From: Gemmatimonadota bacterium
Lineage (GTDB): Bacteria; Gemmatimonadota; Gemmatimonadetes; Gemmatimonadales; Gemmatimonadaceae
Length of the DNA stretch: 55,316 bases
Assembly (NCBI GenBank): GCA_021298395.1
Contig: JAJTFH010000009.1
Coordinates: forward strand, 1 to 55,316
Reading direction: 5' to 3'
The notes below the pieces were generated by a model that was not told where the DNA came from, did not search any database, and was given only the letters and a program-made list of their open reading frames with translations. The position numbers were made by a program, and so were the translations under genes. Position 1 is the first letter of the stretch; each line of letters opens with the position of its first letter. Shown one piece after another: positions 36,535-49,469 of this stretch.

Positions 36535-37914
36535 CTATAACACCCAGTCGGGGTCGGAGGCGGGGAGCGCCTCCCAGACCGACCGCATGGTCGACCACCC
36601 CGGATGCCCGAACTGGTAGTACGTGAGCTGCTTCCCCAGCTCCACCCCGGGCTGGTCCAAGGGATCGATCCCGTAGAGCTGCCCGGCGTAGATCGTCGCC
36701 AGTTCGAAGAACATGAAGAGCCCGCCGAGGTGCCAGGGATCGGCCCGGGTGACGCGAAGCGTCATCGTCGGGCGCCCCTGCGTCGCGAGCGCCCCCGCCG
36801 TGGCGCGGCACTCGGCTCGGAGGAGCTCATGGAAGCCATGTCCCCCGAGGTAGGCGAGCTCCGCCGGCCCCTGGCCGGGGATCGTGAGCTCCCCCCCCTC
36901 GGGCTCCTCGACATCGAGGAAGGTGACCGTCTTGTCGATCGGCCCCTCCATGAAGAGCTGGACCTGCGCATGCTGGTCGGTCGCCCCGACGGCGACGATC
37001 GGGGTGGGCCCCACCGGGTCCCCACCGGGCGTACGCTTCCCGAGGCTCTCCGCCCAGAGCTGCACGAACCAGGGGGCGAGGTCGCGATAGGCGTCGGAGT
37101 AGGGCATCAGCACATGCATCCCCTGCCCCGCCTCCTGATGTGCACGCCACTGCAGGAGGGCGAAGGCGAGCGCGGGGTTCTCGCGGATCGCCCCGGTGGC
37201 GCAGCGATCGCGCATCGCGACGGCGCCCGCGACGAGCGCATCGACATCGAGCCCCAAGAGCGCCGCCGGCAGGGTCCCGACGGGCGAGAGCACGGAGAAA
37301 CGCCCGCCGACGTTCGGCGGGACCTCGAACATCGTGATCCCCTCAGCGGCGCCGACGTCGCGAAGGACCCCCTTGTCCGGGTCGGTGACGAAGACCATCC
37401 CCTGCCTGGCGGGGACCCCCGCGGCCGCGAGCCGTTCCCGCACCAGGAGATACTGCGCCATCGTCTCCGCCGTGCTCCCGGACTTGGAGACCACCAGGAA
37501 GAGGGTGCGGTCGAGCGCGACCTGCTCGAGCACCCCGCGCACCGAGCGCGGGTCGACGTTGTCGAGGATGTGAAGGCGCGGCCGTCCTCCCCGCTGCACC
37601 GACGGACGCGCGTTCCAATCGCGCGGGAGGAGCGCGGTGCGGAGCGCGAGGGCGCCGAGGGCGGAGCCCCCGATCCCGAGGACGACGAGATCGTCGTAGC
37701 GGCCGGCGCGCGCACGCGCCCACGCGATCACCCGCGCGCGCTCCGCGCCCTGCGCCTCGAGCTCGCGGAACCCCAACCGCCCGCGGCCGGCCTCGGCGAG
37801 CAGCCCCGCATGGGCCTCCGCGGCGCGCGGCGCGAGGGAGGCGAATCGCTCCGCCGTCACCCCACTTGGCACGGCACGCCGGGTCATCCCGGTGCAATCG
37901 AGGTGGATCGTCAT
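36535..37914 (-). CDS. pgi: Glucose-6-phosphate isomerase
   Basis: 459-residue phosphoglucose isomerase, interconverting glucose-6-P and fructose-6-P. Motifs are LVVLGIGGSALGALAL, VVSKSGSTAETMAQYL, VPPNVGGRFSVLSPVG and GHGFHELLRAE. It is of the shorter bacterial type. The start overlaps the end of the truncated metallo-beta-lactamase gene by four bases (ATGA). Confidence 0.94.
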   Translation of the reverse strand: MTIHLDCTGMTRRAVPSGVTAERFASLAPRAAEAHAGLLAEAGRGRLGFRELEAQGAERARVIAWARARAGRYDDLVVLGIGGSALGALALRTALLPRDWNARPSVQRGGRPRLHILDNVDPRSVRGVLEQVALDRTLFLVVSKSGSTAETMAQYLLVRERLAAAGVPARQGMVFVTDPDKGVLRDVGAAEGITMFEVPPNVGGRFSVLSPVGTLPAALLGLDVDALVAGAVAMRDRCATGAIRENPALAFALLQWRAHQEAGQGMHVLMPYSDAYRDLAPWFVQLWAESLGKRTPGGDPVGPTPIVAVGATDQHAQVQLFMEGPIDKTVTFLDVEEPEGGELTIPGQGPAELAYLGGHGFHELLRAECRATAGALATQGRPTMTLRVTRADPWHLGGLFMFFELATIYAGQLYGIDPLDQPGVELGKQLTYYQFGHPGWSTMRSVWEALPASDPDWVL

Positions 37915-38498
37915 GCGTCGGGGATCTCCACGGTGAGACCGTCGTAGGCGGGCTGGATGTCGGCGGGGAGCTCCGCCGTGACATACGCCAACGGCCCGAT
38001 CCGATACCCGAAGACCCGCGACCGCCCATGCGGGACCTCGACCGGGATCACGGTGAAGCCCCCGATCCGCGCGGGGACGCCCGGCGAGAGCACATGCCCT
38101 GCCGCCTCGGGCTTCGAGGTGCCCGGCAGCGGACGCATCGTCTCATCGAACACGTAGGTGAACTTCTCGCGCAGCGCCGCGATCGTCTCGGCCGGCCCGT
38201 AGATCGGGATCCCCCCGCTCCGCCGGATGGAGATCGCGCGGATGTCGTCGATCCCATGCGTGTGGTCCGCGTGGTCATGCGTGTAGACCACCGCGTCCAC
38301 GTGGTGGATCCCCGTGGCGATGAGCTGGAGCCGCAACTCCGGTGGGGTATCGAGGAGGAGGCGCTCACCGCCCTGCTCCACCACGGCGCCGACCCGGGTC
38401 CGCTTATCACGCGGATCCTCCGAGCGACAGACGGCACAGTCACACCCGATCTGCGGTACCCCGAAGCTCGTCCCTGTGCCGAGGAACGTCAGCCTCAC
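37911..38498 (-). CDS. Truncated PhnP-like metallo-beta-lactamase-fold protein
   Basis: 195-residue protein of the PhnP/YycJ-like MBL group, which are phosphodiesterases about 250 residues long. The start MRLTFLGTGTSFGVPQIGCDCAVCRS with the paired Cys and the HxHxDH motif THDHADHTHG are intact, as is VEVPHGRSRVFGYR. After AYVTAELPADI the protein ends abruptly: the bridging Asp of the usual YxTD motif is Ala here, and the last ~60 residues with the final His (HPTH-like) are missing. The protein is therefore unlikely to have full two-metal catalysis. Its stop overlaps pgi by four bases and its start overlaps pyk by four, so the truncated form is fixed in the operon layout. Confidence 0.85.
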   Translation of the reverse strand: MRLTFLGTGTSFGVPQIGCDCAVCRSEDPRDKRTRVGAVVEQGGERLLLDTPPELRLQLIATGIHHVDAVVYTHDHADHTHGIDDIRAISIRRSGGIPIYGPAETIAALREKFTYVFDETMRPLPGTSKPEAAGHVLSPGVPARIGGFTVIPVEVPHGRSRVFGYRIGPLAYVTAELPADIQPAYDGLTVEIPDA

Positions 38499-39931
38499 AC
38501 CGTCTCCACCTTGAGCAGATTGGTCGTCCCGGGGATGTTGAACGGGACCCCGGCGGTCACGAGGATGCGCTCCCCCGCCTCGGCGAAGCCGTGCCGCAGC
38601 AAGAGTCCGCGCGCGATCGTGAGCATGTCCTGATAGGTCTCCGCTGGCGCGACGAGAAAGGGGATGACGCCCCAGACCAACGCGAGCTGGCGGTAGGTGC
38701 GCGGCTGGTCGGTGAGCACCACGATGCGCACCCCTGGACGGCGCGCCGCCATCACCCGCGCGGAGAATCCGCTCTTGGTGAAGACGACGAGGGAGTGCGC
38801 GCCCATCATGCGCGCCGCGGTCACCACCGCCGCCGCGATCGTCTCCTCCGTGGTCGCGGAGCCCGGCGCCACGCGATCGAGCCCTTGGCCACGCGTCACC
38901 TCGGCCTGCTCCGCGGCCCCCGCGATCCGACGCATCGCCTCGACCGCCAGCACGGGATATCGTCCCGCCGCGGTCTCCGCCGAGAGCATCACCGCATCGG
39001 TCCCGTCGAGGATGGCATTCGCGATATCGCTCGCCTCGGCGCGCGTCGGCCGAGGATGTTCGATCATCGACTCGAGCATCTGTGTGGCGGTGATCACCGG
39101 ACGCCCATAGCGCGCGGCGAGGGCGATGATCCGCTTCTGTTGCAGGGGGACAGACTCGAACGGCAACTCGACGCCGAGATCCCCGCGCGCGACCATCACC
39201 GCGTCGGTCGCTTGGAGGATCTCCTCGATGCGCTCGAGGGCGGAATCCTTCTCGATCTTGGCGACGATGAGCATCCCCGCCGGGAGCAGCGTGCGGAGCT
39301 GCGCGATATCCTCGGGACGTCGCACGAAGCTGAGCGCGAGGTAATCGAGGTCCTGCGCGACCGCGAAGGTGATGTCGGCGCGATCCTTCTCGGTCAGCGA
39401 GGGAGCGGAGACCTCGATCCCCGGAAGGTTCATCCCCTTATTCGAGGAGAGGAGCCCCCCGACGCGGACGGTGCAGTGCACCCGCGCCCCCTCGATCCGG
39501 TCGACCTGCAGGTCGAGCAGCCCGTCGTTCACGAGGATCGTCGCGCCGGGCCGGACATCCTCGGCGATGTGATCGTAGGTGACGGGGATCTCCCCCGCTT
39601 CCGCCTGAGACTCATGGACGAGGGTGAGCTGCTGTCCCTGATGGAGGTGCAGCGGCTCGGGGAGGACCCCGATCCGGATACGCGGCCCCTGCAGGTCCCC
39701 GAGGATCGCGATCGGGAGCCGCAGCTCGTCCGCGAGCGCGCGCACCGCCTGGATCACCTGGGCGTGCTTGTCGTGCGTCCCGTGCGAGAAGTTGATGCGC
39801 ACGACGTTGACGCCGGCCTGCAGGAGCTGACGGATGACGCCGGCGTCCGTCGACGACGGGCCCAGGGTCGCGACGATCTTCGTGACGTCGTGACGCGTCG
39901 GACCGGGTGCGGCAGCTCGGACCGTCATCAC
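38495..39931 (-). CDS. pyk: Pyruvate kinase
   Basis: 478-residue glycolytic kinase. It has TKIVATLGPSS, VNVVRINFSHG, SLTEKDRADITFAV, IVAKIEKDSALE with the catalytic Lys/Glu, VMVARGDLGVELP, ATQMLESMIEHPRPTRAEASDIANAI and the C-terminal regulatory domain (FTKSGFSARVMAARRPG). GTG 39931 or ATG 39928 are both possible starts. Five bases after the transaldolase stop, it overlaps the MBL gene by four bases. Allosteric control cannot be read directly. Confidence 0.96.
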   Translation of the reverse strand: MMTVRAAAPGPTRHDVTKIVATLGPSSTDAGVIRQLLQAGVNVVRINFSHGTHDKHAQVIQAVRALADELRLPIAILGDLQGPRIRIGVLPEPLHLHQGQQLTLVHESQAEAGEIPVTYDHIAEDVRPGATILVNDGLLDLQVDRIEGARVHCTVRVGGLLSSNKGMNLPGIEVSAPSLTEKDRADITFAVAQDLDYLALSFVRRPEDIAQLRTLLPAGMLIVAKIEKDSALERIEEILQATDAVMVARGDLGVELPFESVPLQQKRIIALAARYGRPVITATQMLESMIEHPRPTRAEASDIANAILDGTDAVMLSAETAAGRYPVLAVEAMRRIAGAAEQAEVTRGQGLDRVAPGSATTEETIAAAVVTAARMMGAHSLVVFTKSGFSARVMAARRPGVRIVVLTDQPRTYRQLALVWGVIPFLVAPAETYQDMLTIARGLLLRHGFAEAGERILVTAGVPFNIPGTTNLLKVETV

Positions 39932-39936
39932 GTCGC

Positions 39937-41067
39937 TCAGTGCCCGCGGAGTGTCGCGGTCTTCGCCTCGATCCCCGCGATCAGCGTGTCGAACGACTTC
40001 TGGAAGCTCGCGAGGCCCTCGACGAGGAGCCGATCGGTGACGGCATCGAGATCGATCCCGAGGGCCGCGAGATCGGCGAGCCCCTGGTCGGCCGCGGCGA
40101 GGTCGGCGTCGACCGTGCGCCGCGTGATCCCATGGTCGCGGAATGCCTCGAGCGTCGCGGGGGGCATCGTGTTCACCGTATCAGGACCGACGAGCTCCTC
40201 GACGTAGAGGACGTCACGATACGCCGGGTTCTTGGTGCTCGTGCTCGCCCAGAGCGGCCGCTGCACCTGCGCCCCCTTGGCGACGAGCGCCGCCCAGCGC
40301 GGGCCGGCGAACCGCTCCTGGAAGAGCCGATACGCCCGCTTGGCGTTGGCGATCGCGGCCTTCCCCTGCAGCGCCTGCGCCCGCTCGGCGGCGAGGGTCC
40401 CCGCCGCGACCAATGCGTCGAGGCGTGGGTCGATCGCGCCATCGACGCGACTCACGAAGAAAGAGGCGACGGAGGCCACGTGCGAGAGGTCCCCGCCCTT
40501 CGCCGCCCGGTCCTCGAGCCCGGCGAGATAGGCCTCGATCACCCGCGCATGCGCCGCGACCGAGAAGAGGAGCGTGACGTTGACGTTGAGCCCATCCGCG
40601 ATCAGCTGCCGGAGCGCGAGGCATCCCTCGGCCGTGCCCGGCACCTTGATCATCACATTCGGACGATCGACGGTCGTCCAGAGGCGATGGGCCTCGGTGA
40701 TCGTCGCGGCGGCGTCATGCGCCGACCCCGGCGAGACCTCGATGGAGACGTAGCCATCCTGGCCCTTCGTCTGCCGATAGACCTCCGCGAAGGCATCGCA
40801 GGCGACGCGCACATCATCCGTCTCGACGAGCTCGAAGAGCCCCCAGGCGTCGAGCCCCTGGGCCGCCCCATCGCGGAGCTGCCCATCATACGCCGACCCC
40901 GTCGCGAGCGCCTTCTCGAAGATCGTGGGGTTCGAGGTCATCCCAGTGAGCGCCTCCTCCCGGATGCGGCGGGTCAGGTCACCCGACCGGAGGATCGCGC
41001 GATCGATGAAGTCGAGCCAGATCGACTGACCAGCGGCGTGGAGCGTGTGAAGCGGGGTCGGCGACAT
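39937..41067 (-). CDS. tal: Transaldolase
   Basis: 376-residue transaldolase of the longer (type 2) class, transferring dihydroxyacetone in the pentose-phosphate pathway. It has WLDFIDRAILRSGDL, GMTSNPTIFEKAL, the Schiff-base lysine in NVMIKVPGT (K141), NVTLLFS and AKRAYRLFQERF. ATG 41067 was selected; a TTG at 41097 would add ten residues. A TAACTT hexamer at 41097-41102 predicts a transcript beginning at 41090 with a 23-base leader. It probably heads the central-carbon operon. Confidence 0.94.
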   Translation of the reverse strand: MSPTPLHTLHAAGQSIWLDFIDRAILRSGDLTRRIREEALTGMTSNPTIFEKALATGSAYDGQLRDGAAQGLDAWGLFELVETDDVRVACDAFAEVYRQTKGQDGYVSIEVSPGSAHDAAATITEAHRLWTTVDRPNVMIKVPGTAEGCLALRQLIADGLNVNVTLLFSVAAHARVIEAYLAGLEDRAAKGGDLSHVASVASFFVSRVDGAIDPRLDALVAAGTLAAERAQALQGKAAIANAKRAYRLFQERFAGPRWAALVAKGAQVQRPLWASTSTKNPAYRDVLYVEELVGPDTVNTMPPATLEAFRDHGITRRTVDADLAAADQGLADLAALGIDLDAVTDRLLVEGLASFQKSFDTLIAGIEAKTATLRGH

Positions 41068-41096
41068 ACGTTGGGAGGGGTCGAAGGTCCACCCCA

Positions 41097-41102
41097 AAGT
41101 TA
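41097..41102 (-). promoter_or_regulatory. -10-like hexamer TAACTT before tal, overlapping a stop codon
   Basis: TAACTT includes the TAA stop of the upstream glycosyltransferase (41100-41102). Six bases later, a start at G41090 would give a 23-base leader. The same hexamer is used for the SRP RNA. Confidence 0.5.
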
Positions 41103-42539
41103 GCGGGAGGTGGAGGCGTCCGCGTCACCCGATGACTGGCCCATCCCCTGTCGGACCATCCGACCCCACCCCGTGTGCCCGCGGAGATACTGCCAGAGCC
41201 CCTGCAGTCGGAATCCTAATGTCACGAGTCGGAAGACCGTCCCCTCGACTACTGCAAATCCCAGCAACCGGAGGAAGTCTCCGCGCGCCGAATACCGCCG
41301 GAAGCTCACCTCCTCCATGATGAGTGCCAACCAGGTCAGGGTGAGCATGTAGCCATACCCGACGACCAGGAAGAGGAGCGCGTAGTCCCGCACGTCGCCG
41401 CCGAGGAACAGACCAAGGGCCAGAAAACCCCACCCAAGCAATTCCACCACCGGGGCGAGCATCTCCCCGAACAGGTAATAGGGCATCACCAACGTGCCGA
41501 TCCGTCCATAGCGCGGATTGAACAGCATGTCGCGGTGTTCGATCAGACTCGCGATCAGGCCGCGATGCCACCGCTGCCGCTGCTGCGCCAGCACCCGGAG
41601 CGTCGAGGGGACCTCGGTCCACGCCACCGGATCCGGGATGAAGGGCAGCGTCGCCGCGATCCCCTGCTCCGCGAGGTACCGGTGCAACCGGATGACGAGC
41701 TCCATGTCCTCGGTGATGTTCCCAGCTCTGTAGCCCCCGATCGCTTGCAGGTACTCCTTGCGGAAGAGCCCGAATGCCCCGGAGATGATGAGGTTGCCGC
41801 CGAGGCGGTTCCATCCCATCCGTCCAAAGAGGAAGGCACGGAGATATTCCACGACCTGCGCCCCGACGAGCCAATCGGAGGCGACGCGTGCCGTGATGAC
41901 GCGACCGAACCGCACGGTGCATCCGTTGACCACGCGGACCGTTCCCCCGACGGCGGCGATGTTGTGCTCGAGGAGGAAGGGACGGGCGAGACGCAACAGG
42001 GCATCGGGCTCGAGCACCGTATCGGCATCAACGGCGACCACGAAGGGATGCCGGGCCGCGTTCATGGCCGCGTTCAGGGAGTCGGCCTTCCCTCCGTTGA
42101 CCTTATTCAGCACCAGGAGACGGGAGTACCGACGCGACCGGTAGTACGCGCGCACCGGTTGGCTCGGGACCCGGAGCGTGGATGCAGGTGGCACCTCGTA
42201 GAGATCGAACGCCTGGATCAGCTGTGCCATCGTCCGATCCGACGACCCGTCGTTCACCACCACGACCTCGAGCGCAGGATACTCGAGGGTGAGGAGGGAG
42301 AGGACGTTGGCCACGATCGTCACCTCCTCGTTGTGCGCGGGCATGAGGAGGGAGAGCGGGGGCAGCGCCTCGGAGGCGAGGAGCCGCTGCAAATGCTCGT
42401 CCGCCGCCATGCGCCAGTGCTGCCAGAGCTCCGGGACGGCGAACATCAGCAGCACGGCATGGAAGCTCGAGAAGACGAGGAGGTAGTAGAGCGCGGCCTG
42501 GGTGGCGAAGCCGAGGATGGGAGCGAGGACGGTGATCAA
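41100..42539 (-). CDS. Processive family 2 glycosyltransferase (PgaC/BcsA-like)
   Basis: 479-residue membrane glycosyltransferase. It has two N-terminal TM helices (LGFATQAALYYLLVFSS, HAVLLMFAVPEL), the GT-A domain with MPAHNEEVTIV, NDGSSD, DAD (171-173), TED (276-278) and QRQRW (320-324), and then about four TMs. These motifs identify a processive beta-glycosyltransferase that builds a polysaccharide and moves it across the inner membrane, as in PgaC or BcsA. There is no PilZ domain. TTG 42539, nine bases after the HEAT gene stop, is the start. The sugar is not predictable. The gene is the third of the RR-HEAT-GT transcript. Confidence 0.9.
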   Translation of the reverse strand: MITVLAPILGFATQAALYYLLVFSSFHAVLLMFAVPELWQHWRMAADEHLQRLLASEALPPLSLLMPAHNEEVTIVANVLSLLTLEYPALEVVVVNDGSSDRTMAQLIQAFDLYEVPPASTLRVPSQPVRAYYRSRRYSRLLVLNKVNGGKADSLNAAMNAARHPFVVAVDADTVLEPDALLRLARPFLLEHNIAAVGGTVRVVNGCTVRFGRVITARVASDWLVGAQVVEYLRAFLFGRMGWNRLGGNLIISGAFGLFRKEYLQAIGGYRAGNITEDMELVIRLHRYLAEQGIAATLPFIPDPVAWTEVPSTLRVLAQQRQRWHRGLIASLIEHRDMLFNPRYGRIGTLVMPYYLFGEMLAPVVELLGWGFLALGLFLGGDVRDYALLFLVVGYGYMLTLTWLALIMEEVSFRRYSARGDFLRLLGFAVVEGTVFRLVTLGFRLQGLWQYLRGHTGWGRMVRQGMGQSSGDADASTSR

Positions 42540-42548
42540 CGGCGCGCC

Positions 42549-43619
42549 TCACGCGTGCTCGAGGTCGATGAGTGCCCCGTCGGAGAGCCCGTCGACCATG
42601 GTGGCGGTCTCGCGCGCATACCGATACCCGCTGTCACGGGCCCGTCGAAGCGCCGCGCGCCCTGGGGCACCTGTCTGCGCCAGCGCGACGGCACTGCGCA
42701 ACCGGACCAGCCACACCGGATCGCTCAAGGCGATGGTGAGCGCGGGGATCGCCGTCCGTGCGGCGAGGTGCCCGAGCGTCCTGGCCGCGGCGGATCGAAC
42801 CGAGGAATCGGGGTCCGCCAGCAACAGGATCGCAGCGTCCGCCGCCTCGGGACTCGGGTCTCGGCGCAGTGCGCGGGCCACCGTCCGGCGAACCGGGACG
42901 GCCGGATGCGCAGCCAGCCGACGCGCCGCACGGATCGCGCCCGGATGATCGATCGCGTCCGCGAGCTCGATGCAGGACGCGAGCTCGGCGACCCGCTGTC
43001 CCGCATTGAGGCGCATCACCAGCAACGGACCGACCTCGCGGGCGCACGAACGCAGGACGATGGTCACGAATTGCCGGACCACCTTGGGGACCACGTCGAT
43101 TCGATCGAGCACGCGGATGACCACCGCATCATCGATCACGAGCGGGAGGGCCGAGGCCGCCGCCACCTGTACACCGGGATGCTCGTCCTCAAACAACGCA
43201 AGCACCATCGCACGGTCGGCCGGCGAGGCCGTCAGCGAGAGCGCCCGCGCGGCCTCCAAGCGCCTCCACCACCGTCGGTGGGACCAGTTGCCGAGCGCCA
43301 CGCGCACCCAGTCCTCCTCGCGCAGCGCACGCCGGAGCTCGTCGCGGAAGGCGGGCGGAATCGTCAGGCGCGCCAAGAGCGCGATGCGGCCGACCGCCGC
43401 CTCGCGAGGCATCGCCCGCAATCGTCCCATGAGCGCCTGTGCGGTCCCTCCTTCCAAGAGCCACTCTCGTAAAGGCCCCTGCAAATCGTTCTCCGCGAGA
43501 GCGGTCACCGCGCGGATGCGCGCGTTATCGCTCCGTCGCAACCAGAGGAATGCCAAGAGGAGGATCCCGAGGATGGCCTGCGCGACGGCGATGACCCCAA
43601 GGGCAGCAGGGAGCGTCAT
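42549..43619 (-). CDS. Membrane-anchored HEAT-repeat protein
   Basis: 356-residue protein with a single TM helix at 5-28 (AALGVIAVAQAILGILLLAFLWL) and a cytoplasmic alpha-solenoid. HEAT/Armadillo-like repeats are clear in RRLEAARALSLTASP, GVQVAAASALPLVID, RRTVARALRRDPSPEAADAA, SVRSAAARTLGHLAA and LVRLRSAVALAQTGAP. It probably acts as a scaffold between the signalling protein and the glycosyltransferase. It overlaps the upstream Hpt-REC gene by four bases (ATGA). GC3 (hand-count about 47 of 60 in the first codons) is lower than in most genes of the window. Confidence 0.85.
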   Translation of the reverse strand: MTLPAALGVIAVAQAILGILLLAFLWLRRSDNARIRAVTALAENDLQGPLREWLLEGGTAQALMGRLRAMPREAAVGRIALLARLTIPPAFRDELRRALREEDWVRVALGNWSHRRWWRRLEAARALSLTASPADRAMVLALFEDEHPGVQVAAASALPLVIDDAVVIRVLDRIDVVPKVVRQFVTIVLRSCAREVGPLLVMRLNAGQRVAELASCIELADAIDHPGAIRAARRLAAHPAVPVRRTVARALRRDPSPEAADAAILLLADPDSSVRSAAARTLGHLAARTAIPALTIALSDPVWLVRLRSAVALAQTGAPGRAALRRARDSGYRYARETATMVDGLSDGALIDLEHA

Positions 43620-45604
43620 TCGGGGGCGTCCTGACTCCGCCAGACGGCGATCTTCGCCAAGAGGACCCGAAGACTCACGGGCTTGGGCAGATAATCGAGG
43701 GCCCCCGCCCGTAGCGCACGGAGTTGGTCGGCCTCACTCCCGCGCACCGACATGAAGACGACCTTGTAGCGGCCGGGACGCTCCACGCGTAACCGATCGA
43801 AGAGGGAAAAGCCATCGAGCCCCGGCAGATTGACGTCGACGATGAGGATCGGCTGCCGACGATGGCACCGGAGACGCACCAGCGCCGCCAGCGCCGCTGG
43901 CCCGTCCTGAAATCGCCGATGGGTGAGCCCCCGCGCGGAGAGCGCGTACATCACGAGCTCGGCGAGCGCGGTGTCATCCTCGACCAGGATCACATCGGGC
44001 GCGACCGTGACATCGGACGGGTCCCACCGCCGGACCAATTCCCCATGGTCGCGCGCGACGAGCCAGGCCTCCTCCGCCGCGTGGAGCAGCTCCGGGAAGA
44101 CCGCCTCGGCACCGGGCACCTGCTCGACGACACCGGCGGCCCAGGCCACAGGGTGTTCGGAGGCGACCTTCGCGAACGGCGTCAGTCGGGCCATCGCCTC
44201 CTCGGCGTTCATCGGCAGGAGGATCCCGAGCGCCGTGTCATCGAGGAAGCCGCTCGCAGCCGCATCCTGGGTGAGCGTTCTCGCGACCATCGCACATTCA
44301 CGCTGCCACTGCGTGGCCCGCTGGGGTCCGTCCGGTGGCACCAGCGGGCGCATGATCACGAGCGAGGTCACGCGCGTGCGCTCCGTCGCCTCACGTAGCA
44401 CCTCGTCGAAATCCCGTCGGGTCCGCTCGGGTAGGGTCAAGGCGGTCTCCGGATGGATCGACCGCGCGGTCAGTCGCAGCCGGCGGACCTCGATCAGATG
44501 AGCCACCCGCCGAGCCAGCTCGACCTCGACCACCGGAGTCGGCTGCAGGTCATCGGCCCCGGCCTCGACGAGCGCCGTGCGCGTTTCCTGATCGAGCGGC
44601 GAGCCGAGAACCAACAGGGGGAGTTCCGCATAGCGACGGTCCGCCCGAAGGTACCGCAACGTGGCCACGGTATCGCGTCCCGGCCATGCGCTCGACCCAC
44701 CGCCACCGGGTCCTCGGGTCCCCATCGGCGCCAAAACCTCTCGGGCACGCCACGGGATGACCACGAGCACCGGGCGTAGCTCCTGCAACGCCACGTTGGG
44801 ATCCGAATCCCACGGCCGGGACACCACATGGGTCCCCTCGCGTGCGGTCACCCGCTGCATGATCTCCAGGGTACCTCCCGCATCATCGAGCACCAGCACC
44901 GTCGCCCCCGCTCCCGATGAGCGCGCCACGTGGGCCTCTATCATTTGGAGGATCTCAGTAGGAGGGGTACCGAGCTCGACCACCTGGCCATTCGCCCCGT
45001 GCGGGACGAGCGCTCCCTCCCTGTCCCGGAGCAAGATGTGAGCGGATGGGTCCGGAACGGTCAGTGGGACATGCGCCGGCGCGATCACCGCCCCGAATGG
45101 CCGCGCATCGATGGCGGGCTGTGCCACGACCGCAGGGAGGCGCTGGACGAAATGCCCACGCGCCAACGCTTCGACGATGAGCCCCGTCGCCTCGCCATCC
45201 GGCACATCGACGAGGAGAATCGGCGCGGAGCGCTCATCGACCGCTGGAGCGGATCCCTCATCGAAGGCCGCCGCGAGGATGCGGGCAAATTGCCGCACCA
45301 CGGCACTCCGACGAGACCGGTCGAGGGTGAGGTCCCCCACCCATCGGGCGACCACCTGATCGAACGCGTCAGCCAAGCGACCGACGTCCAAAAATCCGTA
45401 GCTCCCAGCGGTCCCGCGGATGCGATGCAGCTCTCGAGACAGGGCATCCAACACCTCAGGGGCGGCCGGAGCACGGTGGAGCTGATCAGCGAGCTGTCGA
45501 AACGCCTCGACCGTGTTCCCGACGTTCAACATGAACCGCTCGTGGAGCTGACCGAGCATCGTCGAGGCATCGGGCGGTGGGACGAGTCCGTCGGATTCGA
45601 TCAT
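43616..45604 (-). CDS. Hpt - degenerate REC x2 - degenerate GGDEF - REC signalling protein
   Basis: 662-residue cytoplasmic protein. An Hpt domain (about 15-115) has HRIRGTAGSYGF with the phospho-accepting H60. Residues 128-225 resemble a receiver but lack the acidic pair and Asp. Residues 234-372 are a second receiver with the acidic pair (D240, D241), but VLVVIPWRARE replaces the phospho-Asp. Residues 380-525 follow the GGDEF fold, starting HPETALTLPERTRRDFDEVL, but the GGDEF signature is replaced by GFLDDTALG, so diguanylate cyclase activity is unlikely. The C-terminal REC (535-655) is intact: E542-D543-D544, D590, K641. ATG 45604 was chosen; the frame extends 37 codons upstream past the predicted transcription start. 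First gene of an operon with the HEAT and GT2 genes. Confidence 0.85.
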   Translation of the reverse strand: MIESDGLVPPPDASTMLGQLHERFMLNVGNTVEAFRQLADQLHRAPAAPEVLDALSRELHRIRGTAGSYGFLDVGRLADAFDQVVARWVGDLTLDRSRRSAVVRQFARILAAAFDEGSAPAVDERSAPILLVDVPDGEATGLIVEALARGHFVQRLPAVVAQPAIDARPFGAVIAPAHVPLTVPDPSAHILLRDREGALVPHGANGQVVELGTPPTEILQMIEAHVARSSGAGATVLVLDDAGGTLEIMQRVTAREGTHVVSRPWDSDPNVALQELRPVLVVIPWRAREVLAPMGTRGPGGGGSSAWPGRDTVATLRYLRADRRYAELPLLVLGSPLDQETRTALVEAGADDLQPTPVVEVELARRVAHLIEVRRLRLTARSIHPETALTLPERTRRDFDEVLREATERTRVTSLVIMRPLVPPDGPQRATQWQRECAMVARTLTQDAAASGFLDDTALGILLPMNAEEAMARLTPFAKVASEHPVAWAAGVVEQVPGAEAVFPELLHAAEEAWLVARDHGELVRRWDPSDVTVAPDVILVEDDTALAELVMYALSARGLTHRRFQDGPAALAALVRLRCHRRQPILIVDVNLPGLDGFSLFDRLRVERPGRYKVVFMSVRGSEADQLRALRAGALDYLPKPVSLRVLLAKIAVWRSQDAPE

Positions 45605-45665
45605 TCCACAGGGAGGGAGGAGGAACGTCACACCGATGCCGAGACTCGGTCGGGACCATCGCAGA

Positions 45666-45694
45666 TAGCTAGAACAGTGGGACGGCACCGTCAA
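45666..45694 (-). promoter_or_regulatory. Promoter of the Hpt-REC / HEAT / GT operon
   Basis: TTGACG (45689-45694) and TAGCTA (45666-45671) are separated by 17 bases, one of the few recognisable -35/-10 pairs in the window. Predicted start is A45659, giving a 55-base leader. Confidence 0.6.
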
Positions 45695-45702
45695 TTCACC
45701 GT
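45686..45702 (+). repeat. CACCGT direct repeats in the divergent promoter region
   Basis: CACCGT at 45686-45691 and again at 45697-45702, eleven bases apart, so on the same face of the helix. The first overlaps the -35 region of the operon's promoter. Such spacing is typical of sites for dimeric response regulators. Confidence 0.4.
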
Positions 45703-45765
45703 TACTGGACGACATCTGGCGACCGACCTAGGAGAACGCGCGTTGCGCCCCCTATTTCCTGCCGT

Positions 45766-45771
45766 CAGCTT
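45766..45771 (+). promoter_or_regulatory. -10-like hexamer CAGCTT before receiver gene
   Basis: CAGCTT, six bases, then GTG 45778. It has one mismatch from TAGCTT used at 14558 and 17147, with the same spacing. Confidence 0.5.
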
Positions 45772-45777
45772 TCCCAC

Positions 45778-46146
45778 GTGCTTCACCTCTTGTGTGCGGA
45801 CGATGACCCCGACATGCGGGTGATCCTCGAGGCCGCCCTTCGACTCGACCCGGCAATCGAGCCAGAGATCTTCCCGAGTGGGACCGCCCTTCTGGAGCGA
45901 GCCCGCCATGGGGACGCGCACGTCATCCTGCTCGACGCGATGATGCCCGCCCCCGATGGATACGCGACCTGTCGAGCACTCAAGTCCGATCCGATCACCG
46001 CCCCGATTCCCGTGGTCTTCCTGACTGCCGCGGCGGAACGATCCGCCCGCGACGCAGCACTGGCCGCCGGGGCCATCGCCTGTCTCCCGAAACCGTTCGA
46101 TCCACGGACGCTGGCCGCAGCGCTGCATCGCGTCATCCAACGCTGA
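45778..46146 (+). CDS. Single-domain receiver (CheY-like response regulator)
   Basis: 122-residue stand-alone receiver domain. The acidic pocket D8-D9-D10, phospho-acceptor D53 (VILLDAMMP), Thr in VVFLTA and Lys in CLPKPFD are all conserved, so it should be phosphorylated. No output domain exists, so it may shuttle phosphate to or from the Hpt domain of the divergent 662-residue protein; this is inferred from position. It is followed after 33 bases by the outer-membrane TPR protein. Confidence 0.9.
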   Translation: MLHLLCADDDPDMRVILEAALRLDPAIEPEIFPSGTALLERARHGDAHVILLDAMMPAPDGYATCRALKSDPITAPIPVVFLTAAAERSARDAALAAGAIACLPKPFDPRTLAAALHRVIQR

Positions 46147-46179
46147 CCGATCCTGCGTCCCTCCTCTCTCCCCCACGCT

Positions 46180-47763
46180 GTGCGCCCCCTCCTCCGTGGC
46201 GTCATCGGATTGACCCTGGTGACCTCCGTGCTCGCTGGGCAGCAGTCCGCCGCCGACTCCCTCTGGCGTGCGGGGCGGACCGCCGATGCCGTTCAGGAAT
46301 ACCGTCGGCGCGTCGCCGCCCGTCCCGGGGATATCCAGGCGAATTTCCGTCTCGCCCAGTCGTTCGCATGGCAGGGACAGATCGATTCGGCCCTCGTCCA
46401 CATCCGCATCGCCCGTCGGACCGACCCAAGAGACCCCGACCTCCTGGAGGCGGAAGCCACCTTCCTCTCCTGGGGCCGTCAGTGGCGCGCAGCATTGGTG
46501 CGATTCGATTCACTGATCGCCACCGCATCCCATCCTGCGGACCTTCGCTATCGGAACGGACGCGCGCGAACGCTCGCCTTCCAAGGCGACTTCGCCGCTG
46601 CGCACGCCGTCTATCGAGGCATTCTCCGTTCCGACCCCAGCAATCGAGAGGCGGCATTCGGTCTCGCGCAACTCACGGCGTGGAGCGGACGTCTGGACGA
46701 GGCGGCCTGGCACCTGCGCACCCTCGACGCGGTCCAGCCTGGAGAGACACGGGTCCTCGTCCTCTTGTCCCAGATCGAGGTCTGGCAGGGCCGCGTCACC
46801 GCAGCCGAACGCACCGCCTCGCGGGTCACCCCGGGCGATTCCAGCACTGCCGACGTGCGCGCGCATCGCGAGGGGCTGCTCAGACAGCGCGCCAGCACGG
46901 TGGAGGCCGCGTCGTGGGTGAGTCGTGACTCCGAGGGGAATGCGAACCGCTGGACCAGCTTCAGCGCTCGCGCCCTCGCCCGCGGTGACTGGCACCTCGG
47001 CGTCTCGGCTGGATTGTTGGTCGCCTCGGACGCGTTCCGCACCGGGTCACGTGAACAGGTGGAAGCCACGGTCGCGCATCCCCTCGCGAATGGCACCGTG
47101 TCCGGAGGACTGGGCCTGCGTTCCATCACACCCGCACCGCTCGATCCTGGAGAACCGCCACCCGCGGATCGGCAGCGGGTGACAGGGCAGTTGGGCATCA
47201 CACAGCGTCTCGGTGGCGGCGTCATCGTGCGAGCGGGGGCGTCGCGCTCGGTCTTCGACGAGGTCGCCTCGCTGACCCCCCTGCAACTCGATCTCTCACA
47301 GCGCGAGGCGTCACTGGAATGGGTCGGTGACGGGACCACGAGCCTCCTCGGCGGTGCCTCGATCCTCGAGCTCCGCGATGGGAATCGTCGGTGGCGCTGG
47401 AATGCTCGGGTGAGCCGGCGCGTGGATCCCTCCCTCGTCCTGGGCATCGGGGCGGCGACCTTCGGCTTCGAGTCCCGTGGATTCCGGTATTTCTCTCCGA
47501 ATCGGTTCTCCATCAGAGAGATCACCGCCGACTGGTCGATCGACCGCGGCCCGTGGGTGGCCGCGGCCGGCGCTGGTGCCGGAACCCAGCAGATCGGGAC
47601 CGGCGTCGTCCAGGACCTCTGGCGCGGCGAGCTCCGCGTGGTGCGCCGACTCGGTCGGACCGAGGTGGAAGGTGCGATGCTCCACGCGAACAGCGCCGCC
47701 GCCTCGCTCGTCGGCGCGTATGCCTACACAGCAGGCGGCCTCACGATTCGACGGCGCTTCTGA
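46180..47763 (+). CDS. TPR-containing outer-membrane beta-barrel protein (YaiO-like)
   Basis: 527-residue exported protein. It has a signal peptide (about 1-19, VIGLTLVTSVLAG), an N-terminal TPR solenoid (about 22-215: AADSLWRAGRTADAVQEYRR, FRLAQSFAWQGQIDSAL, GRARTLAFQGDFAAAHAVYR, FGLAQLTAWSGRLDEAAWHLR) and a C-terminal beta-barrel of repeated amphipathic strands ending with TAGGLTIRRRF, a typical terminal aromatic. The layout matches YaiO-family proteins, and PgaA and BcsC combine similar parts: the TPRs bind the growing polysaccharide and the barrel exports it. GTG 46180 is the start. Hand-counted GC3 is about 76% in the first 62 codons. Confidence 0.82.
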   Translation: MRPLLRGVIGLTLVTSVLAGQQSAADSLWRAGRTADAVQEYRRRVAARPGDIQANFRLAQSFAWQGQIDSALVHIRIARRTDPRDPDLLEAEATFLSWGRQWRAALVRFDSLIATASHPADLRYRNGRARTLAFQGDFAAAHAVYRGILRSDPSNREAAFGLAQLTAWSGRLDEAAWHLRTLDAVQPGETRVLVLLSQIEVWQGRVTAAERTASRVTPGDSSTADVRAHREGLLRQRASTVEAASWVSRDSEGNANRWTSFSARALARGDWHLGVSAGLLVASDAFRTGSREQVEATVAHPLANGTVSGGLGLRSITPAPLDPGEPPPADRQRVTGQLGITQRLGGGVIVRAGASRSVFDEVASLTPLQLDLSQREASLEWVGDGTTSLLGGASILELRDGNRRWRWNARVSRRVDPSLVLGIGAATFGFESRGFRYFSPNRFSIREITADWSIDRGPWVAAAGAGAGTQQIGTGVVQDLWRGELRVVRRLGRTEVEGAMLHANSAAASLVGAYAYTAGGLTIRRRF

Positions 47764-47820: not shown

Positions 47821-48411
47821 TTACCGCACCACCCACTCCGCCGCGAGCGCCATCGTCCCCCAGGCGATCGTCAGGATCCCACGCGCCGCACTGTTCGGCA
47901 TCGTCGGCGCCGGGACGAGGGCGATCTGGAGCGACTCGAGCGACTCCGCCGCGGTCCGCGAGGTCAACGGCACGCGCACCAGGTCCTTCGAACCGTCATA
48001 CTCCGTCCCCCACTGCCCGGTGTTCTTGTTGATGATGAGGAGCGTCTTCCCCCCCTCGCGCACCGCGTAGAGCGAGTAGGCACCCTTCGGGACCTCGGCC
48101 CCACCGATGGTGAGATCGACCTCCGTGGTCAGCGTGGTCGCGGCATTCGCCCCGACGCGCCAGACCGTCCCATCCTTCGCGAGCTCGGTCGGGAGCCCCG
48201 CGCGCCCACGCACATGGGGCTGGCCGTACTCCACCTTGATGGTGAGCGGGGTCGGTGCCGGCTGCCCCTGCACCCGTGGGGTGGAGAGGGAGACGACTGT
48301 GGTCGCCCGCGTGCTGGCAGCCGCGGTCAGGCGGCTGCCCTGCGCCGCGACCGACGAGGAGGCGGCACTACCAAGGAGGGCGAGGGAGAGGATGATCCGG
48401 AAACGACGCAT
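47821..48411 (-). CDS. Secreted DUF2911 protein
   Basis: 196-residue exported protein. The signal peptide is at about 1-23 (RRFRIILSLALLGSAASSSVAAQ). The DUF2911 core is recognisable as IKVEYGQPHVRGRAG, VWRVGANAATTLTTEVDLTIGG, VPKGAYSLYAV and LLIINKNTGQWGTEYD. The family is common in Gemmatimonadota and Bacteroidota and its function is unknown. ATG 48411 opens the signal peptide, with GGAG about nine bases upstream. It is divergent from the photoreceptor-like regulator gene. Confidence 0.88.
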   Translation of the reverse strand: MRRFRIILSLALLGSAASSSVAAQGSRLTAAASTRATTVVSLSTPRVQGQPAPTPLTIKVEYGQPHVRGRAGLPTELAKDGTVWRVGANAATTLTTEVDLTIGGAEVPKGAYSLYAVREGGKTLLIINKNTGQWGTEYDGSKDLVRVPLTSRTAAESLESLQIALVPAPTMPNSAARGILTIAWGTMALAAEWVVR

Positions 48412-48471
48412 GGGATGCTCCGATTGAGAGTGGTGATTCGTACAGGAAATCACTGAACGGTTCCTAGGAAT

Positions 48472-48513
48472 TATCTTGACAGGAGGACCGTTTGTCCAGT
48501 TTATTTCTGGACA
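48472..48513 (+). promoter_or_regulatory. Promoter/operator region of the MerR-B12 regulator
   Basis: TATCTT (48472-48477) and TTGACA (48476-48481) precede a perfect 7-bp inverted repeat, TGTCCAG (48493-48499) and CTGGACA (48507-48513), with seven T/A bases between them. Using TTGACA as a -35, TTATTT in the spacer (48501-48506) would be a -10 after 19 bases, MerR-like. AGGAGG at 48481-48486 is five bases from TTG 48492. The repeat is a candidate autoregulatory operator. Confidence 0.5.
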
Positions 48514-49469
48514 TGGCTGAGCCTGACGGCGCCCCCTTCCTCCACCCGATGCGCATCGTCGCACAACGGACCGGGCTCACCCCGGACCTGCTGCGCGCAT
48601 GGGAAAAGCGCTATGGCGCCATTCGGCCGGTCCGAAGTGCCGGTGGTCAGCGGCACTACACCGATGCGGATATCGATCGCCTGCGGTTGCTCGTCCGGCT
48701 CACCCGCCTCGGTCGGCAGATCGGCCAGGTGGCGACCCTGCCGAACGACGAGCTCCAGAAGCTCATCCTCGCCGAGGAGCGGGCCGCCGAACTCAACCGG
48801 GCCCCCTCCGGCGACGGCCCCGCGATCGAGAGCTTCCTCTCCTCCGCACTCATCGCCGTCGAGACCTTCGACGGCCATGCCTTGGAGATGACCCTTCGCA
48901 CCGCCGCCCTCCGGCTCCCCGCCGACGAGGTCATCGATCAGGTGATCGGTCCGATGCTTTTCACCATCGGGTCGCTCTGGCACCAGGGGCTCCTCCTCCC
49001 CGCCAACGAACATCTCGCGACGGCGACCATCCGACGCGTCCTCACCTGGATGGGAGAGAGCTCGGCCCCCCCGCAGGGGGCACCGGTCGTCGTGGTCGGG
49101 ACACCCGCGGGTCAGCTCCACGAGCTCGGCGCGATGCTCGCCGCGACGAGCGCCGGCGGCCATGGCTGGCGGGTGATCTACCTCGGTCCGAATCTTCCGG
49201 CCGAGGAATTGGCGCGCGCCGCGCAGATCGCCAAGGCCGATGCCGTCGCGCTCTCCATCGTCTACCCGACCGACGACCCCCGCATCACCCGCGAGCTCCG
49301 CACGCTGCGATCCCTGTTGCCGCCGCGCGTCGGGCTGGTGATCGGTGGGAGCGGCGCGGCGGCGTATGGCGAGGTCGTCTCGGAGATCGGCGCCGATGCG
49401 CTCACCTCGGTGACGGATCTCCGGCGCTGGCTGCGTGCGCGCGCCACGACCGTGTTCGCGCGCGCCTGA
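48492..49469 (+). CDS. CarH/LitR-like MerR-family regulator with B12-binding photoreceptor domain
   Basis: 325-residue transcription factor. The MerR HTH (about 17-85) has TGLTPDLLRAWEKRYGAIRP and AGGQRHYTDADIDRL. The four-helix B12-capping domain (about 115-195) contains LWHQGLLLPANEHL: W163, H164, then E173-H174, the W-H-x8-E-H signature of CarH/LitR proteins that hold 5'-deoxyadenosylcobalamin and respond to light. The Rossmann domain (about 197-310) has QLHELG with H210 as probable lower cobalt ligand, plus VIYLGPNLPAEEL and GGSGAAAYG. The dark tetramer of such proteins represses target genes. TTG 48492 has AGGAGG five bases upstream; ATG 48513 is the alternative. Targets are unknown: no carotenoid or photolyase genes are nearby. 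Confidence 0.88.
   Translation: MSSLFLDMAEPDGAPFLHPMRIVAQRTGLTPDLLRAWEKRYGAIRPVRSAGGQRHYTDADIDRLRLLVRLTRLGRQIGQVATLPNDELQKLILAEERAAELNRAPSGDGPAIESFLSSALIAVETFDGHALEMTLRTAALRLPADEVIDQVIGPMLFTIGSLWHQGLLLPANEHLATATIRRVLTWMGESSAPPQGAPVVVVGTPAGQLHELGAMLAATSAGGHGWRVIYLGPNLPAEELARAAQIAKADAVALSIVYPTDDPRITRELRTLRSLLPPRVGLVIGGSGAAAYGEVVSEIGADALTSVTDLRRWLRARATTVFARA

Follow-up and report, generated by a model that had tools for sequence, protein, structure and literature searches.

A candidate exopolysaccharide secretion locus in a Gemmatimonadota bacterium, with a HEAT-repeat protein beside its synthase

Known synthase-dependent exopolysaccharide systems mostly use cyclic di-GMP (c-di-GMP), sensed via PilZ-type receptors, for their control, and a secreted glycosidase is their usual partner. 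Here we analyze a locus in a 55,316-nucleotide stretch of DNA from a Gemmatimonadota bacterium (contig JAJTFH010000009.1 of assembly GCA_021298395.1; hereafter called the window), which is one contig of a 1.82-Mb draft genome. At positions 41100-47763, this locus encodes a family 2 glycosyltransferase (GT2), a HEAT-repeat protein, a response regulator with phosphorelay domains, a stand-alone receiver, and an outer-membrane barrel with tetratricopeptide repeats (TPRs). We propose, with a probability of about 0.7, that the locus functions in synthase-dependent exopolysaccharide secretion around a conserved regulator–HEAT–GT2 core, in which the HEAT protein mediates the control. This reading is supported by the adjacency of the HEAT and GT2 genes, by the porin matches of the barrel, and by the way in which the barrel tracks diderm bacteria. 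The HEAT protein is the new element among the otherwise familiar parts of an exopolysaccharide system.

Several described systems resemble the locus in part. As in Pga/Ica, the GT2 is related to PgaC (TIGR03937, 131 bits), a TPR domain is joined to a 16-stranded porin whose best structural match is PgaA, and relatives encode a secreted glycosidase-fold protein, where Pga has the hydrolase/deacetylase PgaB. However, the window GT2 falls far under the PgaC cut-off, neither PgaD nor a deacetylase was seen, and the window has the HEAT protein and the phosphorelay regulator instead of PgaD. The Bcs system (BcsA, BcsC, BcsZ) likewise has a processive-type GT2, a TPR-barrel porin like ours, and a hydrolase, which here occurs in relatives, whereas the window locus has no PilZ domain and no BcsB was seen. 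The YaiP-YaiX-YaiO system of Escherichia coli also combines a GT2 with an outer-membrane barrel, and YaiO-domain barrels partner the cassette in Stutzerimonas and Neomarinimicrobiota; in contrast, the K-12 locus has no HEAT or regulator gene, and the window barrel does not match YaiO.

In Clostridium perfringens, the NELoc-2 genes CP4_0466-0468 encode an unknown protein of 685 amino acids (aa), a HEAT protein (377 aa), and a GT2 named 'chitin synthase' (466 aa), with no function given (PMC2879425). Compared by description alone, their order and sizes resemble those of the Clostridium locus in our set (L137), whereas this bacterium has no outer membrane and the neighbours are VTC/CotH/FtsZ-like, not phosphorelay genes. 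Except for this gene table without a function, no description of a HEAT–GT2 system was found in the open-licence literature; the HEAT mention in the lipocone paper concerns Wnt/beta-catenin. The original prediction, made from the letters of the window, that the combination is not a described system agrees with this literature as regards the system, but not as regards the HEAT and 'chitin synthase' pair, which stands in the NELoc-2 table.

The five divergently arranged open reading frames (ORFs) of that prediction were confirmed at about the same coordinates, and all of their Pfam domains were recovered, as follows.

41100-42539, minus strand: GT2 glycosyltransferase, predicted processive polysaccharide synthase/translocase, 479 aa (Pfam Glyco_tranf_2_3, E=8e-25)
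42549-43619, minus strand: HEAT-repeat protein, proposed adaptor, 356 aa (HEAT_2, E=6e-16)
43616-45715, minus strand: Hpt-REC(pseudo)-GGDEF(relic)-REC response regulator, with a likely start at 45604 giving 662 aa
45778-46146, plus strand: stand-alone receiver (Response_reg, E=2.8e-21)
46180-47763, plus strand: TPR and 16-stranded outer-membrane barrel, proposed polysaccharide export porin, 527 aa (TPR_19, E=6e-17)

The regulator, HEAT, and GT2 genes form a tight minus-strand run, in which the regulator and HEAT ORFs share 4 nt (ATGA) and the HEAT–GT2 gap is 9 nt, while the genes for the stand-alone receiver and the TPR barrel are transcribed away from this run on the other strand. A receiver gene also adjoins the regulator in congeners.

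The HEAT–GT2 pair is conserved far beyond this genome. The GT2 subfamily is strongly detected (E < 1e-80) in 37 of 150 genomes of the phylum, and the GT2 gene is next to a HEAT gene wherever the neighbourhood is readable. When GTDB genomes were scanned with no query other than the GT2 alignment, 80 loci were obtained from many phyla and one archaeal metagenome-assembled genome (MAG), and the neighbour genes were identified by six-frame profile searches. The HEAT gene lies directly upstream of GT2 in 74 of the 76 loci that were chosen by GT2 alone and have upstream DNA, which supports, for these two of the five families, the co-occurrence in other genomes that the original prediction had proposed as its check, and in 112 of the 115 loci read with room overall. 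A regulator or receiver gene comes next upstream of HEAT in 92 of 106 loci, and at part of the remaining loci, as in Stutzerimonas, a YaiO-type barrel gene is placed between the receiver and HEAT genes. The pair is seen at least in Gemmatimonadota, Actinobacteriota, Bacillota, Bacteroidota, and Ignavibacteria, as well as in Neomarinimicrobiota, Stutzerimonas, Acidobacteria, and Elusimicrobia. Moreover, over 109 pairs, the GT2 distance matrix correlates with that of HEAT at r=0.85, whereas permutation gave at most 0.09; genes inherited together would be expected to behave in this way. The co-occurrence of HEAT and GT2 is far above chance, and, judged from the sequences, the pair is an ancient unit.

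Two records stand apart by their titles. A MAG titled Klebsiella pneumoniae (L102) bears HEAT–GT2 and is probably mislabelled or a contaminated bin, and a Methanomicrobia MAG contig (L136) bears receiver–HEAT–GT2, through either lateral transfer or mis-binning.

The HEAT gene is tied more closely to the synthase gene than the porin gene is. A TPR/barrel gene is found nearby at 17 of 21 non-Gemmatimonadota diderm loci versus 0 of 28 monoderm loci (p=9e-10), with the diderm and monoderm labels taken from record titles and with some genera repeated (the Stutzerimonas/Pseudomonas group occurs four times). The weak barrel matches rest partly on TPRs, and four loci were searched for the barrel domain as such: a YaiO barrel domain was confirmed in the Stutzerimonas, Neomarinimicrobiota, and Balneolaceae members, and was at the cut-off in Elusimicrobia. 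The barrel is thus a conditional partner, present only in diderms and at some of the Gemmatimonadota loci. Of the five families originally grouped together, the response regulator, HEAT protein, and GT2 constitute the conserved core, but the barrel accompanies them at only part of the loci.

In the window barrel protein, Pfam detects TPRs only and leaves the barrel itself unmatched. The AlphaFold model (pLDDT 85.1, pTM 0.66) places the TPRs at aa 24-237 and 16 strands at aa 240-526, in agreement with the TPR outer-membrane barrel that had been predicted. The top Foldseek matches of the barrel model are BcsC, PelB, and PgaA, and a second structural aligner gave PgaA (4y25) at Z=27.1 over 272 residues and 2.2 A, PelB (9h80) at Z=25.7, and BcsC (6tzk) at Z=24.3, against a background of about Z 20 for TPR-only rows and lower values for unrelated barrels. 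The modelled structure and its matches support a polysaccharide export porin fold, and hence the presence of a TPR-bearing outer-membrane exporter. The barrel is not a direct YaiO homologue, as it showed no similarity to YaiO and matched neither of the YaiO family profiles (TIGR04390 and PF19413).

The GT2 is of the inner-membrane synthase type. The DGS, DAD, and ED motifs, which provide the D,D,D set, and the QxxRW motif (QRQRW) are kept in the GT2 alignment, and the hydropathy profile shows N-terminal transmembrane segments and three more close to the C-terminus. These motifs, together with the porin model and its PgaA, PelB, and BcsC matches, support the earlier view of a synthase and an outer-membrane porin for a polysaccharide. 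The best NCBIfam match is PgaC_IcaA (TIGR03937), but its 130.9 bits are under the equivalog cut-off of 422.3, and we therefore do not assign the GT2 as a PgaC/IcaA poly-N-acetylglucosamine synthase; nor is it a direct homologue of YaiP, which is merely 26% identical over 227 aa.

How is the HEAT protein placed relative to the synthase? An N-terminal hydrophobic segment occurs in 108 of 108 HEAT homologues, and in 100 of them the positive charge is higher after this segment than before it. The protein therefore most likely consists of one N-terminal transmembrane helix and a cytosolic solenoid, on the same side as the regulator and the GT2 catalytic domain, consistent with the membrane tether foreseen in the original prediction. 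A sequence search of the PDB for its function returned generic HEAT and designed alphaRep proteins only. In the simplest model, the HEAT adaptor would relay the state of the regulator to the synthase.

The regulator had been described as an Hpt/REC signalling protein. Both kinds of domain are present, but the full architecture is Hpt-REC-GGDEF-REC, and a degenerate GGDEF domain had been overlooked. The domains are arranged as follows.

45320-45505, minus strand: Hpt domain with an intact His motif, ELHRIRGTAGSYGF (Pfam Hpt, E=2.6e-6, and regulator alignment)
44480-44908, minus strand: first receiver (REC1), degenerate, with a 23-aa insertion and approximate boundaries (regulator alignment)
44003-44479, minus strand: relic GGDEF domain (hhalign)
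43649-43993, minus strand: second receiver (REC2), intact in its DD, D, and K positions (Pfam Response_reg, E=5.9e-20; D580, D581, and K678 invariant)

The phosphorelay residues are present in the Hpt domain (His) and in REC2 and the stand-alone receiver (Asp/Lys), but not in REC1, where the phospho-acceptor Asp and the Lys are replaced (VVIPWRAR and TP in the window, versus LLLLDINLPG and KP in congeners). An error in the MAG sequence may underlie the insertion and the lost phospho-acceptor of REC1. The GGDEF domain is invisible to Pfam in the regulators of the window clade; by hhalign, their middle regions align with the intact GGDEF domains of the same gene over 144 of about 159 columns (E=1.7e-5, probability 78.5), which identifies a GGDEF-type domain by remote homology. 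In the window regulator, the GG(D/E)EF active-site motif is absent, with SGFLDDTAL at the motif columns, and so is the RxxD I-site. Of 24 Gemmatimonadota regulators, a GGDEF score is still obtained for 11, few retain the motif, and some have no GGDEF domain at all. In contrast, the GGEEF/GGDEF motif is intact in regulators of Bacilli, of Neomarinimicrobiota, and of a locus from the same class (L066). At one further locus (L071:9202-11226), the regulator that adjoins the cassette begins with a MarR domain where the others have Hpt, and continues as REC-GGDEF-REC.

No PilZ domain was found in the locus or anywhere in the whole genome, no known c-di-GMP motif was found in HEAT or GT2, and one other GGDEF-family protein is encoded on another contig. 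The PilZ domain or GGDEF I-site through which c-di-GMP control usually, though not universally, acts is thus absent, and the earlier statement that there is no PilZ domain or c-di-GMP site is true of this genome, but not of the system, given the relic cyclase domain and the intact GGEEF of relatives. Because the regulator motif is intact in many relatives outside the phylum, c-di-GMP probably belonged to the ancestral control. No cognate kinase was found in the window locus: a CHASE3 hybrid kinase sits between GT2 and transaldolase in congeners and is absent at this site, while congeners, like other relatives, have membrane hybrid kinases next to the cassette, and nine HATPase_c matches above the cut-off occur in the window genome.

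A secreted TPR protein of about 900 aa adjoins the barrel or the cassette in congeners and other relatives, and homologues without a TPR match occur in Bacilli, Clostridium, Desulfosporosinus, and Actinobacteria. The protein is modelled with the TIM-barrel fold of glycoside hydrolases (GHs), with GH157 as the best match (Z=27.6), followed by GH2 and GH5, and Glu336 and Glu507 are invariant in the alignment. This protein, which occurs with the cassette in many phyla and has no Pfam family beyond TPR, possibly represents a new GH family. Examples, with TPR in the Gemmatimonadota members, are as follows.

L038:10237-12993: secreted GH-fold protein
L066:14460-17189: secreted GH-fold protein
L119:11359-14592: secreted GH-fold protein
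L155:11442-13598: secreted GH-fold protein

The window locus has no such hydrolase or modifying enzyme, which is usual but not universal in these systems, and a search of the window genome for the secreted protein, made without a positive control, gave no match. With the GGDEF domain a relic, the REC1 acceptor lost, PilZ absent, and the kinase and glycosidase genes gone from the locus, the window carries a stripped-down form of a widespread system with an ancestral c-di-GMP link.

On the flanks, GT2 is followed in the same orientation, and almost without gaps, by transaldolase, pyruvate kinase, and metallo-beta-lactamase (MBL)-fold hydrolase genes (37911-41102, minus strand). These genes had also been missed in the original account of the locus; the order GT2–transaldolase–pyruvate kinase recurs at loci L043, L047, and L048, and the cassette may share a transcript with genes of central carbon metabolism. 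On the other side, a DUF2911 gene and a MerR/B12-binding (CarH-like) regulator gene adjoin the barrel gene (47821-49469) and are retained at the congener loci L036-L037.

In the mechanism that we propose, a sensor kinase would supply both the stand-alone receiver and the Hpt/REC protein with phosphate, and the Hpt/REC protein would act on the HEAT solenoid, anchored by its one helix at the cytosolic side of the inner membrane beside the synthase. The HEAT protein would then gate the GT2, which would polymerize sugar from a nucleotide donor and thread the chain across the inner membrane, and the chain would be taken outward by the TPR domain in the periplasm and by the barrel with its 16 strands. 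The GGDEF branch has decayed in this lineage, and the control would have to pass via the remaining Hpt and REC2, or via another protein.

Could c-di-GMP still be the signal? The family as a whole might be controlled by c-di-GMP made locally by the regulator GGDEF, with HEAT (or GT2) as the receptor, and with the signal here coming from the remaining GGDEF protein elsewhere. The intact motifs in Bacilli, Neomarinimicrobiota, and L066 and the GGDEF-family protein on the other contig favour this explanation, but the loss of the motif from nearly all Gemmatimonadota regulators, and of the domain from some, the absence of PilZ from the genome, and the lack of a known c-di-GMP motif in HEAT or GT2 make it unlikely. 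The decay of the c-di-GMP parts while the regulator, HEAT, and GT2 stayed together suggests instead that protein contact, rather than a second messenger, is the conserved output. We consider it quite improbable that the GT2 decorates a lipid or surface glycan without making a polymer, and that the barrel is an unrelated neighbour: GT2 folds are common to non-processive enzymes and many Gemmatimonadota loci have no barrel, yet this GT2 combines QxxRW with C-terminal transmembrane helices, the presence of the barrel follows the outer membrane across phyla, and the porin model matches exopolysaccharide exporters specifically, with glycosidase neighbours in relatives. That the window copy is a decaying remnant that no longer works seems very doubtful, although the dead GGDEF and REC1 (whose Asp and Lys are kept in congeners), the missing glycosidase, the missing kinase between GT2 and transaldolase, and the small genome (1.82 Mb versus about 3.1-4.1 Mb in congeners) point that way; the five ORFs are open, the GT2 motifs, Hpt His, and REC2 are intact, the tight operon spacing is retained, and the GGDEF motif loss is common to the clade while HEAT–GT2 remained intact.

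Several points nevertheless weigh against exopolysaccharide secretion under HEAT-mediated control. The GT2 is distant from every named synthase (best 131 bits, cut-off 422), most other Gemmatimonadota loci have no barrel within the fetched stretch, and an operon that is passed on vertically as a whole would likewise show correlated trees and adjacency. As the window locus lacks the kinase and glycosidase genes found in congeners, it could be partly non-functional. The gene content, the state of domains and motifs, the conservation, and the adjacency are read from sequence, and from these we infer polymer synthesis, enzyme activity, the HEAT–GT2 contact, phosphate flow, and gating.

More tentatively, and with the odds somewhat against it, the HEAT adaptor may be the general regulatory subunit of an unrecognized, phylum-spanning class of GT2 synthases, performing by direct contact the role that PilZ and c-di-GMP have in cellulose synthase, and in Gemmatimonadota the cyclase may have been reduced to a scaffold, which would leave the gating of the synthase to phosphorylation alone. 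HEAT–GT2 recurs across these phyla and is joined by a porin only in bacteria that have an outer membrane, which points to a large and so far unexamined class of polymers, for biofilms or capsules, under another mode of control. The series from intact to dead GGDEF domains within one regulator family would represent a natural experiment in the conversion of a c-di-GMP enzyme into a scaffold.

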